Assembly: GCF_000372845.1 (NCBI RefSeq)
Contig: NZ_KB889963.1
Coordinates: 1,236,146-1,300,145 of the forward strand
DNA length: 64,000 bases
Direction of reading: 5' to 3'
Source: Methylocystis rosea SV97
GTDB lineage: Bacteria > Pseudomonadota > Alphaproteobacteria > Rhizobiales > Beijerinckiaceae
Positions 42,217-45,807 of this stretch are shown here, one piece after another. A model generated the notes under the pieces. It was not told the origin of the DNA. It made no database searches and saw only the letters and a list, made by a program, of their open reading frames with translations. Every line of letters begins with the position of its first letter. The stretch's first letter is position 1. The position numbers were made by a program, and so were the translations under genes.

Positions 42217-42339
42217 GCGGCAGAGAGTTCTATGACGCCGCGTTGTTTTTGACGCGCGCCTCTCCTATCATCGGCCCAACGGCCCTCCGATCGCGGGGGC
42301 CGTTTGCGCGTTTCATCGCGCCGGTCGGGAGGGGCTCCG

Positions 42340-42984
42340 TTGCCGCACAAAATGCAGAAAGCCAGTGGGCGCGCGAGGCTCGTCGATAACGCGCGCTTCA
42401 TCCGTCAATGGATCGAAAACCCGCGCCTCATCGGCGCCGTTTCGCCGTCCGGACGCGCGCTCGCCAAGACGATGGCTGGCTTCGTCGAACTGGATCGAGA
42501 GGGCCACATCGTCGAACTCGGGCCCGGCACCGGTCCTGTCACTCAGGCGCTGCTCGCGCGCGGAATCGCGCCCGAGCGCCTCGTCCTCGTCGAATATGAG
42601 AGCCGTTTCTGCCATCTGCTGTCGGAACGCTTTCCTGGCGTCAACATCGTGCAAGGCGACGCCTATGGCCTCAAGGCGACTCTCGACGGCAAGGTGCCTG
42701 GGAAGATCGCCACCGTCGTCTCCAGCCTGCCGCTCCTGGTGCGGCCGGAGCGCGATCGGGTCGAGCTGTTGAACCAGGCCTTCGAACTGATGGGCGACGA
42801 GGGGCTCTTCATCCAGTTCACTTATGGCCTGACCAAATCGCCGATGCCCATGCACGCCAACGGCGTCAACGGCGCCTATGTCGGGAAGGGATCGCCGCCG
42901 GTCGTGCTCAACATTCCGCCCGCGCGCGTCTGGCGCTATCGCAAGGCGGGTTACGCCGGCTTCGCCGGAAAGCGTAAGGCGTGA
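42340..42984 (+). CDS. pmtA: Phospholipid N-methyltransferase, PmtA-like
   Basis: This 214-residue class I SAM methyltransferase has motif I IVELGPGTGPVTQALL and PSGRALAKTM upstream, typical of the rhizobial PmtA type that converts phosphatidylethanolamine to phosphatidylcholine. Its place right after dnaK-dnaJ and before pyrF is the arrangement known from rhizobia. I place the start at TTG 42340, 7 bases after GGGAGG; an ATG at 42352 is possible but badly spaced. Substrate is inferred from family and order. An rRNA methyltransferase (KsgA-like) fit is weaker. Confidence 0.75.
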   Translation: MPHKMQKASGRARLVDNARFIRQWIENPRLIGAVSPSGRALAKTMAGFVELDREGHIVELGPGTGPVTQALLARGIAPERLVLVEYESRFCHLLSERFPGVNIVQGDAYGLKATLDGKVPGKIATVVSSLPLLVRPERDRVELLNQAFELMGDEGLFIQFTYGLTKSPMPMHANGVNGAYVGKGSPPVVLNIPPARVWRYRKAGYAGFAGKRKA

Positions 42985-43336
42985 AGGCGCGGGAGCGACC
43001 GATCGAAAAAACATTATAAAATTGTGGACAAGACCCGGCTGATCGGAAAGCTCTGGCAGACGCTACGGAGTGCATTTTATGGAACCCTAAGGGGGTTAAG
43101 AGACCGTGGGTTACTCATCAGCACTCCTGACGAGGATGGGCGTCTCCTTTGGACGATATCGCAGAAAGGCTAGTCTGAGCGCGTAATTTCAAAGCAGTAA
43201 ATGCTTGCTTTATGACTCTGGCTAATGCAGAACTCGGCTTCGAATCTGCCTCGCAGCGCTCGCGTCAAGCCACAATCGCGTGGATTCAGCGTATCCCGCG
43301 TTTAATCCGAGAGGCAGGTCGCCTGGAGCGCAAGAG
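42985..43336. other. Left edge of AT-richer inserted segment
   Basis: Base composition shifts visibly from GC-rich to AT-richer soon after the pmtA stop, around 43000-43020 (AAAAAACATTATAAAATTG). No integrase, transposase or recognisable gene lies here. A short AACCC/GGGTT-type hairpin is near 43084-43099. It is the 5' flank of the divergent pyrF and probably contains its promoter. Confidence 0.5.
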
Positions 43337-44104
43337 ATGTCAGCCGTGGCCGAATTGATTCGACCCGATACGAATTTTGTTGCAGATGAGCAACTCCAAG
43401 AAGCTCGTCGGCGCCTAATCGTCGCTCTGGATTTTGACACCGTAGAGTCGGCAAGAGAACTCGTCGAAGCTCTTGGGGATGAAGTCGAATTCTACAAGGT
43501 GGGGCTTGGGCTTCAACTTGCTGGAGGCGACCAATTCGCGCGTTGGCTTAAAGATCTGAAAAAAAAGGTCTTTCTAGATTACAAATATTATGACATCGGC
43601 GAAACAATTAAGCGGGCTGTTTCGCAGGCGGCTGAATTCGGGGTGGATTTCCTCACGGTTCACGGCGTTAGCGGCATCCTAGAAAGCGCCGTTGCAGGCC
43701 GCGGGAATTCCGACCTGAAAATTCTTTCCGTTACTGTGCTTACTAGCATGGACGCCAAAGATATTCAGGAGATGGGATTCCCTACGTCCATGTCTGTGGA
43801 GGAGTTGGTTGTTCATCGCGCTCGAAATGCCTTCAAGGCTGGTGTGGATGGAGTGATCGCATCTGCCCATGAAGTTGAAAAACTCAAGAACGAATTTGAA
43901 GATAGGCTCATGGTAGTCACCCCAGGTATACGCCCGCTCGGAGCGTCTCTGGACGACCAAAAGCGTATCGCGACGCCTTTCGCAGCGGTTCGATCTGGGG
44001 CAGACTATCTAGTGATCGGTCGGCCTATCACTAAAGCAAGAAACCCCGTCGAATCTGCGCACGAGATCGTGGTCGAGATGGCAAGCGCTTTAGCGGCTGA
44101 CTAA
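43337..44104 (+). CDS. pyrF: Orotidine 5'-phosphate decarboxylase, divergent copy
   Basis: This 255-residue enzyme makes UMP from OMP. Active-site residues are intact: K54 in [11 protein letters not shown], the D81-x-K83-x-x-D86 triad in [12 protein letters not shown], and the phosphate loop [12 protein letters not shown] near the end. The gene has clearly AT-richer codons than its neighbours (for example TTTCTAGATTACAAATAT), unlike dnaJ or hpnB. A native-type pyrF C-terminus survives at 45452-45586. So this seems to be an imported gene that replaced the resident one. ATG 43337 gives a normal start. Confidence 0.9.
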
Positions 44105-44173
44105 CCCTGCCAATAACCAACGCCACTAACCAAGTTCCGATAGGAATAATCTAGCGGCTGCGCCGCCGAACCT

Positions 44174-44262
44174 GACTCTGGTACCCAGAAGGGTAGAGTC
44201 GTGGGGGGCAATCCCAGGGGAAACGCTGCAAATCGTTCCTTGCCCGGCCAGCCGTCCCCACG
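44174..44262. other. Strongly structured intergenic segment between pyrF and P63C gene
   Basis: Two structures are stacked: a hairpin GACTCT (44174-44179)/AGAGTC (44195-44200) with inner ACCC/GGGT, and a larger stem CGTGGGG (44200-44206)/CCCCACG (44256-44262) with an inner GGGCAA/TTGCCC pairing. It lies between convergent genes. No T-tract follows, so a simple intrinsic terminator is not certain; a structured RNA or element end is possible. Confidence 0.5.
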
Positions 44263-44266
44263 AGGC

Positions 44267-45313
44267 TCAAGCGCAGGGCGCGTCTGAGCCTTCGTCCTCT
44301 TTAGGGGGTGGCAGTCCGAACAAGTCGCCGGGGCCTGGCGGGAATTTTTTCGTAAAAAGCTTCGCGAACTCCTCCCAAGTGTCTGACACGCTCAATAGCG
44401 TCGTGACTGACACAATTTGCTTCTCGAGGTGCGGGTGCCCGACTTCCTTGGTTAGCAATTGATGGTGAAGGTGCCTGCGACGTTTTTTTGTTGGATCGTA
44501 CGGGTTGCGCCGCTCAAGCTCGTGAACAACGCCGGGCGGCAGGGGGTCGTAAATCAAGGCCTTTGTCAGCTTCCCGATGTACGCGTTGCGAGCGTTGCTG
44601 CCTGGTTTGTATTGCCAGCCCCGGACCTTGTGCAACTCTTCGTAAAAGGAATCTGGAAAGCGCTTGGCCCAAGGAAGAAGCTCTGGTGAGATATACGCTG
44701 CAAGGATCTTCTGGAGCTCATCGCGTGCGCGAAACTTCTGATAGCCTGTGGCCTCATCAACAAGCGCGATCAAGCCGACATCGGCCAATGCACGCATCAA
44801 TGTCTCGGCACGCTGCGCTTTGTCGAGTTGCTGCTTTTGGAGGGCCTTCGCCTCGCGCGCCCGAAGCCAGACTTCGCAAACGGCACGAAGAATGCGGGCG
44901 TCGTAGCCAATTACAGTCCGCTTGCCATCTTGGTACTGGATCGGCTGAAGAGGCCCTTCAAGTAAGGCGTTGTCGATAAATGGTTTTAGCTGGCTCGGAG
45001 CGATAAATAGCGGCAAAAGGCCCCCAGCCTCTTGAGAGGCGCGTTTCAGCCTTTTTGACGCGCCGCTGCGCTCGCCAAGGATCGCATATGTAATTCCATT
45101 TTCCGTAAGAACTCGGCGCCCATCACTTAACACTGCACAAGGAATGTTCGCCTCACCGAGTTCCAGCACCCCAGGATATTCGACTTTTGGCAGAGATGCT
45201 GCCGCAAGAGCCCGCGCCTTCCCGCCTTCGGCCGCGATCCTGCTGCGTTCCTCTTGGCTCAGTTTATCGGCGCGGGCCTTCCCGCCTTTGCTCTGCTTGT
45301 TATCGATTGTCAT
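44267..45313 (-). CDS. P63C-domain protein, mobile-element associated
   Basis: This 348-residue protein has the C-terminal P63C domain: LLPWAKRFPDSFYEELHKVRG, the GKLTKALIYDPLPPGVVHEL segment, and KKRRRHLHHQLLTKEVGHP. The N-terminal part begins with a Lys-rich GGKARA repeat. P63C proteins are found mostly on prophages and mobile elements and their function is unknown. Codons are AT-richer than the chromosome norm. ATG 45313 follows AAGGGG; it is the only other gene in this inserted segment. Confidence 0.8.
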   Translation of the reverse strand: MTIDNKQSKGGKARADKLSQEERSRIAAEGGKARALAAASLPKVEYPGVLELGEANIPCAVLSDGRRVLTENGITYAILGERSGASKRLKRASQEAGGLLPLFIAPSQLKPFIDNALLEGPLQPIQYQDGKRTVIGYDARILRAVCEVWLRAREAKALQKQQLDKAQRAETLMRALADVGLIALVDEATGYQKFRARDELQKILAAYISPELLPWAKRFPDSFYEELHKVRGWQYKPGSNARNAYIGKLTKALIYDPLPPGVVHELERRNPYDPTKKRRRHLHHQLLTKEVGHPHLEKQIVSVTTLLSVSDTWEEFAKLFTKKFPPGPGDLFGLPPPKEDEGSDAPCA

Positions 45314-45451
45314 CAAGGGGCCCCTTTAGAATCGTATGAGCGAGCATATAGCTTGCTCAGGGCCGACATAGCAAGCTGTCTGGCGTATATCCCCGCTCTT
45401 AGCTTTCTAGTCGCTTGAATGGGGCGTCCTTGCATCAGCTACATAAGAGTG

Positions 45452-45586
45452 CAGAAGCGCGTCATGACGCCGCGACAGGCGATCGCCGCCTCGGCGGACT
45501 ATATTGTCGTCGGAAGGCCGATCACGCGGGCGGCCGACCCCGCAGCGGCCGCCGAGGCGATCGGCTGCGAGATGGACGGCGCCTGA
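45452..45586 (+). pseudogene. pyrF: C-terminal remnant of native pyrF
   Basis: Forty-four codons plus stop read [20 protein letters not shown], then [17 protein letters not shown] and a short tail. This is the conserved end of orotidine 5'-phosphate decarboxylase, with GC-rich chromosomal codon use. No matching upstream part exists; sequence before 45448 changes character abruptly. The intact foreign pyrF carries the corresponding DQKRIATP at about 43956-43979. The breakpoint is thus within the DQKR-encoding bases. Confidence 0.85.
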
Positions 45587-45600
45587 CAGGAGGTCGCGGC

Positions 45601-45807
45601 ATGCCCTACGCCAGCAACGCCGACCTGCCTGAAAATCTCCAGCACATCCTTCCTGAGCACGCGCAGGATATTTATCGCGAAGCCTTCAATCACGCCTTCG
45701 ACGCCCACCGCGGCGACCCGCGGCAGGAAGAGACGGCGCACCGCATCGCCTGGGCCGCCGTGAAGCGAGGCTACGTCAAGACCGAGGCGGGCTGGACAAG
45801 GCGATAG
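45601..45807 (+). CDS. ChaB-family protein
   Basis: This 68-residue protein is a ChaB-family member: LPENLQHILPEHAQDIYREA and ETAHRIAWAAVKRGYVK cover almost the whole family pattern. ChaB was named for a cation transport regulator in E. coli but its function is poorly defined. A strong ribosome site CAGGAGG precedes the ATG. It lies just after the pyrF remnant, which was probably its original upstream neighbour. Confidence 0.9.
   Translation: MPYASNADLPENLQHILPEHAQDIYREAFNHAFDAHRGDPRQEETAHRIAWAAVKRGYVKTEAGWTRR

Follow-up and report, generated by a model that had tools for sequence, protein, structure and literature searches.

Several kinds of mobile DNA are known to enter or replace genes. 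Prophages and genomic islands integrate into genes such as icd and tRNA genes by means of integrases, restoring only the 3' end of the gene. Xenologous gene displacement in situ is another known route of gene replacement. The IS1595 family of insertion sequences (IS), including its "transporter IS" members, was reportedly founded in a paper by Siguier et al. in 2009. IS1595 elements with passenger genes have been described (PMC3129680, PMC7986276, PMC8101967), and the same three sources give as family traits a transposase with a Zn-ribbon and a DDE_Tnp_IS1595 domain, an 8-bp target duplication, short inverted ends and passenger genes. Synthetic home-and-rescue gene drives are also known (PMC7968924); their insert breaks a gene that the host needs and brings a rescuing version of it. 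Here, a 64-kb stretch of the genome of Methylocystis rosea SV97 (G000, 3.9 Mb), called the window, is described, in which the native gene for orotidine-5'-phosphate decarboxylase, pyrF, is broken and a diverged, complete pyrF stands beside the remnant. As a whole, the locus is very probably explained by a pyrF-carrying IS1595 transposon that split the native pyrF, after which the carried copy replaced it and the window element decayed.

The whole G000 genome has two PyrF matches only, which are the complete AT-rich copy and a C-terminal remnant of 44 codons (all positions are those of the window). The carried PyrF (43337-44104, 255 aa) reaches 254.5 bits with the NCBIfam pyrF model, which has a cut-off of 193, and the native remnant at 45452-45586 is in frame and matches positions 185-221 of the OMPdecase profile (E 2.3e-9). 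The GC content drops from ~65% to 51-57% between 43001 and 45500, and the GC content at third codon positions (GC3) of the inserted pyrF is 0.51, compared with 0.81 for pmtA and 0.84 for dnaK. These profiles and both composition measures confirm the first-pass annotation, which had read from the letters an intact, AT-richer pyrF at 43337, a P63C gene and a 44-codon in-frame native-like pyrF C-terminus at 45452. The insert is bordered on the left by native codons 1-8 and on the right by the native Q-K-R codons at 45452. The arrangement goes beyond chance: the remnant starts precisely at the 8-bp sequence found in duplicate on either side of the element in a second genome, Methylocystis sp. B8 (G036), and a 17-base transposon-end sequence ends five bases ahead of it. 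In 39 genomes of the genus, this 17-mer has six exact matches, every one at the end of an element of the same family, and 20 matches with up to two mismatches, against 7 for the reversed control. Native pyrF loci were read for the site in 24 cases, two of them without a readable motif, and the 8-mer CAGAAGCG is present at 14 of the 22 readable Methylocystis sites. The features of the locus are the following.

42304..42984, + strand: pmtA-like methyltransferase gene, left flank, outside the element and source of the flank tree (NF045881 at 140 bits, below the cut-off of 250; PmtA tree).
42981..43005, + strand: 5' stub of the native gene with codons 1-8 of pyrF (VKARERPI, 42981-43004), cut by a deletion (alignment to the beginning of the native G036 pyrF; overlap with the pmtA stop as in G036).
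43006..43186, + strand: truncated and frame-broken 3' remnant of the transposon left-end gene (LEP; tblastn of the intact 173-aa G036 LEP gives 75% and 87% in two frames; ~80% at the DNA level).
43187..43336, + strand: leader of the carried pyrF (sliding identity of 80-90% to G036; leader present in 2 of the 39 genus genomes).
43337..44104, + strand: carried xenologous pyrF, 255 aa, the sole complete PyrF of G000, DxKxxDI motif kept (PyrF searches, profile and tree).
44105..44266, no strand: scar of the lost transposase and helix-turn-helix (HTH) genes (44134-44158 is a 25-base match to the G036 HTH gene with one gap and one mismatch).
44267..45316, - strand: cargo gene with a P63C domain, directed from the right end towards the interior, like its counterpart in the G023 element (PF10546, E 2e-33; phrog_2384; 58% to the P63C of that element).
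45427..45451, + strand: right terminal inverted repeat with its last 5 bases degraded, ~20 of 25 bases matching the G036 end by eye (exact 17-base TTGCATCAGCTACATAA at 45430-45446).
45452..45459, + strand: CAGAAGCG at the Q-K-R codons of the native gene, the target site and presumed right-hand duplicate, its left counterpart being deleted (8-mer comparison).
45452..45586, + strand: C-terminal remnant of the native pyrF, 44 codons and stop (PyrF search, OMPdecase profile).
45601..45807, + strand: chaB, right flank, outside the element (PF06150).

PyrF was searched in 60 relatives, with the flank comparison restricted to the genomes for which the locus was returned (30 loci). At the same place, relatives have one ordinary, uninterrupted pyrF, and an AT-rich pyrF without the remnant was not seen there. 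G036 has three PyrF matches, corresponding to a complete copy 65% identical to that of the window and to the N-terminal and C-terminal parts of the native gene. The carried PyrF has ~49% amino-acid identity to the native PyrF. The G036 element, of 3,618 bp, lies inside pyrF at the very site used in the window, and its ends are 25-bp inverted repeats, CGGTATTATG...CATAATACCG (25 bp by eye; 24/24 in scoring). It is flanked by exact copies of an 8-bp target duplication, CAAAAGCG, which corresponds to the Q-K-R codons of pyrF and is found as CGCTTTTG on both sides. Its transposase matches PF12762 (E 2.4e-40), PF12760 (E 2.2e-10) and NF033547 (over the cut-off), as in the IS1595 family. The element encodes a 173-aa LEP, the xenologous PyrF, the transposase, a small HTH-like protein, all of whose Pfam matches are weak, and another open reading frame (ORF) of 173 aa; the latter and pyrF are passengers between the ends that are unrelated to transposition, as in a transporter IS. 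When the element and one target copy are removed, the native pyrF becomes an ORF of 230 codons, identical without gaps at 216 of 230 positions to the uninterrupted pyrF of the sister genome G035. The terminal repeats, the target duplication and the split native gene show transposition, and the G036 structure is the picture that would be expected of DDE transposition into a working gene.

The window copy is a decayed relative of the G036-type transposon, a remnant and no longer an active element. No transposase was found in the window with the G036 transposase as a tblastn query to E 1e-3; the left terminal repeat is absent from the window, and the whole G000 genome has a single match to the end sequence, the degraded right end. 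In G036, G023 and G017, the transposase gene comes after the cargo, be it pyrF or another gene, and before the far end; the 25-base match to the HTH gene after the window pyrF marks its loss. What is missing from the window copy is the transposase, the left end and the 5' portion of LEP, and from the native gene codons ~9-186. The first-pass annotation had proposed that an element inserted in the 3' region of pyrF with a full substitute, or that the 5' part of the resident gene disappeared afterwards; each of the two proposals fits, the first by the intact G036 element with the same site and right end as in the window, and the second for codons ~9-186, but not for codons 1-8, which are still in place. 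Its suggestion of pyrF as an integration site holds as to the insertion, but not as to an integrase and attachment site, the agent being a DDE transposon of the IS1595 family with an 8-bp duplication. As a separate observation, G000 also carries a second, complete element of the same family (C1:2950758-2955491, L107:7259-11992; 4,734 bp) in a glycosyltransferase (GT2) gene. Its transposase, which might act in trans, shares 76% identity with the G036 enzyme.

Here it is proposed that an IS1595-family cargo transposon with its own pyrF entered the Q-K-R codons of the native pyrF, which would have been split at the moment of insertion. The carried pyrF would have supplied orotidine-5'-phosphate decarboxylase, so that pyrimidine synthesis could continue, and the host would have become dependent on the element. 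In the window, one deletion then took away native codons ~9-186 together with the left end and the beginning of LEP, and another the transposase, leaving the xenologous pyrF as the resident gene. The sequences themselves show the ends, the target duplication and the empty site for G036, and the matching right end, the split native gene and the losses for the window. pyrF is presumably needed in this host. The putative rescue copy has the active-site motif and signs of purifying selection, as would fit a working enzyme. The insertion was presumably tolerated because the carried enzyme rescues the cell, and the host would then be unable to lose the element's pyrF; the low identity to the native gene (~49%) should also hinder repair by recombination. 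We infer that the carried enzyme works and that dependence holds the element in place, as a self-rescuing natural insertion that should make its host dependent.

The xenologous PyrF is present in five of the 397 family genomes (G000, G036, G522, G657 and G439), distributed over four genera, with 2 of the 39 genus genomes (by leader DNA) and 1 of 15, 1 of 10 and 1 of 2 genomes in the three other genera. The congeners with a PyrF match score like ordinary PyrF (45-50% identity), and those included in the tree group with the natives; one of the 15 had no match. In all five xenolog genomes, the xenolog is the only complete PyrF found and none has an intact ordinary pyrF beside it (G657 is only 77% complete); G036 additionally retains its two native pieces. 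The family sample yielded G036 and three further members. With the window itself set aside, the order sample (397 genomes) gave 9 matches and the class sample (385 genomes) 1, at 49-54% (limit E 1e-66). The plasmid collection returned 47 records, all below 60% identity, the viral contigs none, and genome_contigs, with narrow patterns, two loci, which are G036 itself and a Rickettsiales metagenome-assembled genome at 44%.

Transposase relatives at E 1e-80 or better were found in 48 of the 397 family genomes (61 matches). Within the fetched stretches lay 46 of the 61, which together with six IMG/VR loci make 52 copies; 42 were delimited, and ten were left out, being at contig ends or without matching ends. 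In the 42 elements, the ends match at 18-24 of 24 bases and the 8-bp duplications are exact. Most have the transposase, the small HTH gene and LEP in common, and the cargo is variable (93 ORFs of at least 120 aa were scanned, with 30 Pfam families matched at E 1e-4), part of it fitting defence models such as those for methyltransferase and RmrA. A single GT2 gene family, as defined by BLAST clustering, is the target of 24 of the 42 (e.g. L054:2145-6535, L113:7972-11496 and L146:8345-11690), in several genera of the family and in both orientations. Three pairs of these stand side by side, and the 24 elements therefore represent 21 loci; 17 of the duplications are at D-Y-P codons (assigned by eye) and 7 elsewhere in the gene. 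By the same clustering, dprA has three elements and comM/yifB two, one of each being confirmed by profile. Pfam searches on one-sided pieces of six target genes matched L054 (GT2), L132, L136, L123 and L131; the L113 piece, N-terminal, matched no Pfam family, although it clusters with GT2 by BLAST. The family strongly prefers a few conserved target genes. Cargo clearly homologous to the element's own target was found in one of the 42 elements, the pyrF one, and no other fetched element locus encodes PyrF; pairing of cargo and target as a family-wide rule is rejected. A second, weak match (L140:9395; E 9e-6, with 37.5% identity across 64 residues) falls in an ORF whose frame is unconfirmed as coding, and was not counted. 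An RNA guide for target choice is likewise rejected as a rule. In the 42 elements, the own site was no better matched in the element interior than the sites of others, with a mean fraction of sites scoring at least equal of 0.79, 0.71 and 0.64 for 8, 16 and 24 bases; the outliers were L142 at 8 bases and, at 24 bases, G036, where the cargo is homologous to the target.

Two readings share the anatomy described above and differ only on whether the pyrF cargo and the pyrF site are a maintained pair. According to one, with nearly an even chance of being right, pyrF was an ordinary passenger of a family with few preferred sites and was kept only after landing in pyrF, by coincidence and selection and with no evolved link between cargo and target. 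The very varied cargo, target preferences as unrelated to cargo as that for GT2, the negative guide-sequence result and the target site retained in the carried copies agree with it. The lack of an intact ordinary pyrF in all five xenolog genomes does not, nor does the finding that both pyrF carriers are in pyrF (2/2), compared with none of 41 other elements (nominal Fisher p ~0.001, from a tiny sample). The carried PyrFs of G000 and G036 are 64% identical, and this ~36% amino-acid divergence, with codon-position identities of 71/80/38%, indicates that both have apparently been under long purifying selection, so that the pyrF-carrying lineage looks old. According to the other reading, which is advanced tentatively and at rather less than even confidence, a long-lived, site-preferring transposon lineage pairs cargo with target, carrying a diverged pyrF with its own leader and entering pyrF; these same points would suggest a maintained rather than accidental pair. 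If true, each successful insertion would do no harm from the outset and could not be undone later, which would amount to home-and-rescue in nature and would spread a foreign PyrF lineage as sole PyrF over several genera.

Other sequences were observed within or next to elements of the family. Short tRNA-like sequences resembling the 3' end of transfer-messenger RNA (tmRNA) are near the HTH and transposase genes (L033:5869-5941, L054:3366-3441, L113:8515-8588 and L113:8618-8688), with similar motifs in L107, L111, L120, L124 and L138. Where the Rfam tmRNA model was run, they scored 17-38 bits, below the gathering score, and the reversed-motif control gave 0. Two odd tRNA genes of undetermined anticodon and one complete tRNA-Thr-like gene are inside transposons (L136:10909-10985, L138:11259-11330 and L105:6535-6623). 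The elements of L119 (just past 11813) and L123 (just ahead of 3817) lie a few bases from a palindrome, TTTCACGTGAAA in L119 and a variant of it in L123, which we take to be parS-like.

Both the flank and the PyrF trees indicate that the G000 and G036 insertions are two separate events at one site. The PmtA of G000 is ~99% identical to that of six genomes with an uninterrupted pyrF and 93% identical to that of G036, whose native pyrF part is closest to G035 (94%). In the PmtA tree (27 of 30 sources, three having no PmtA), G000 and G036 are placed among different uninterrupted genomes, and the pattern needs at least two changes. In a 62-row PyrF tree, the five carried or xenolog PyrFs form one clade (100/98) apart from all natives in the tree; grouping of the foreign PyrF with the Methylocystis natives, the outcome that would have spoken against the first-pass annotation, was not seen. 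Within the clade, the G000 PyrF groups with the three copies of other genera (99/93) and not with G036. This tree omits G1084 (a long branch that joined the foreign pair in an earlier tree), the partial native G036 row, three of 13 congeners of genus g174 and one of nine of genus g176. A single insertion in the ancestor of the 13-genome PmtA clade, inherited by G000 and G036 and erased in the remaining 11 genomes when they recombined with an intact pyrF, would account for the same 8-bp site and the related LEP and leader in both genomes. It is nevertheless improbable, given the two or more changes among uninterrupted genomes, carried PyrFs at 64% while PmtA is at 93%, the grouping of the G000 PyrF with other genera, and the unlike right-hand cargo of the two elements.

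In G657 and G522, the xenolog is directly downstream of pmtA, the native place of pyrF, without remnants. The G657 copy has a GC3 of 0.51, whereas the adjacent genes are at 0.76 and 0.75. The xenolog of G439 lies behind a tRNA-His gene. The loci of G657 and G522 would suit an in-situ displacement by homologous recombination through the shared flanks, with the transposon sequence acquired independently, but the inverted ends, the duplicated target and the interrupted native gene of G036, together with the right end, site and LEP remnant that the window has in common with it, show transposition and make this very improbable. An island brought in by an integrase that uses the pyrF 3' end for attachment, in the way phages use icd or tRNA genes, matches the 3' location and the intact replacement gene but is scarcely credible, as no tyrosine or serine integrase domain was found in the eight element ORFs scanned (three of the window, five of G036), a whole gene was brought rather than a C-terminus rebuilt, and the 8-bp duplication, inverted ends and DDE transposase of G036 refute it there.

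Some points weigh against a pyrF-carrying transposon as the source of the replacement. LEP and the leader are closer between G000 and G036 (80-90%) than the pyrF body, which falls to ~50-60%; 43187-43409, the leader with the first codons of the carried pyrF, is 76-90% identical to L033 and the rest of the gene ~50-60%. A sigma-70-like promoter was not found upstream of the carried pyrF, where the sole site is on the other strand, compared with 1.5 expected, which makes the scan uninformative. In G000 as in G036, the carried pyrF retains the sequence CAAAAGCG and is thus not recoded against re-insertion. The pyrF insertions with visible transposon parts are two, only one of them intact, and inspection of the xenolog loci of G522, G657 and G439 revealed no transposon end and no native pyrF remnant; these may therefore be finished replacements or arrivals by another route. 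A single old insertion with many losses would also count here, unlikely as it is. As to the leader itself, Rfam gave nothing on window positions 42900-45700 up to E 1, and an RNA element in it is rejected as chance, since the RNase P match in G036 is weak (E 0.046) and is missing from a narrower search, which gave another weak match instead (snR75, E 0.084).

IS1595 elements with passengers are known; what appears new is a transposon with a substitute for the gene that it breaks. Among the matches listed in the open literature, which leaves subscription papers outside its coverage, no transposon replacing the gene it breaks was found, nor, in the open literature, any account of IS1595 with pyrF or of Methylocystis with pyrF and a transposase. 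The locus would represent the exchange of a core biosynthetic gene for a distantly related orthologue, the vehicle being still visible on the spot, and a route by which a small transposon may become indispensable without a toxin-antitoxin pair. Furthermore, a transposon family with a strong preference for a few conserved genes makes target choice testable.

As in prophages and islands, the harm of inserting into a needed gene would be cancelled by element-borne sequence; unlike them, the DDE transposon brings a whole gene, far diverged from the native one. As in xenologous displacement in situ, a resident core gene is replaced in place by a diverged outside orthologue, but the vehicle is visible here and is a transposon breaking the resident copy, not flank recombination. 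Similarly to home-and-rescue drives, as these are understood to work, the pyrF element disrupts a needed gene and brings a rescuing copy, judged by sequence alone; it differs in that no homing nuclease was seen and that the rescuing pyrF keeps the target sequence without recoding, and it would be a bacterial, natural counterpart to rescue-type gene drives. The closest likeness of traits is to the transporter IS of the IS1595 family, with the Zn-ribbon and DDE transposase, 8-bp duplication, short inverted ends and passengers all present in G036; unlike those described, the LEP gene starts inside the end repeat, and the element carries a replacement for the very gene that it interrupts.

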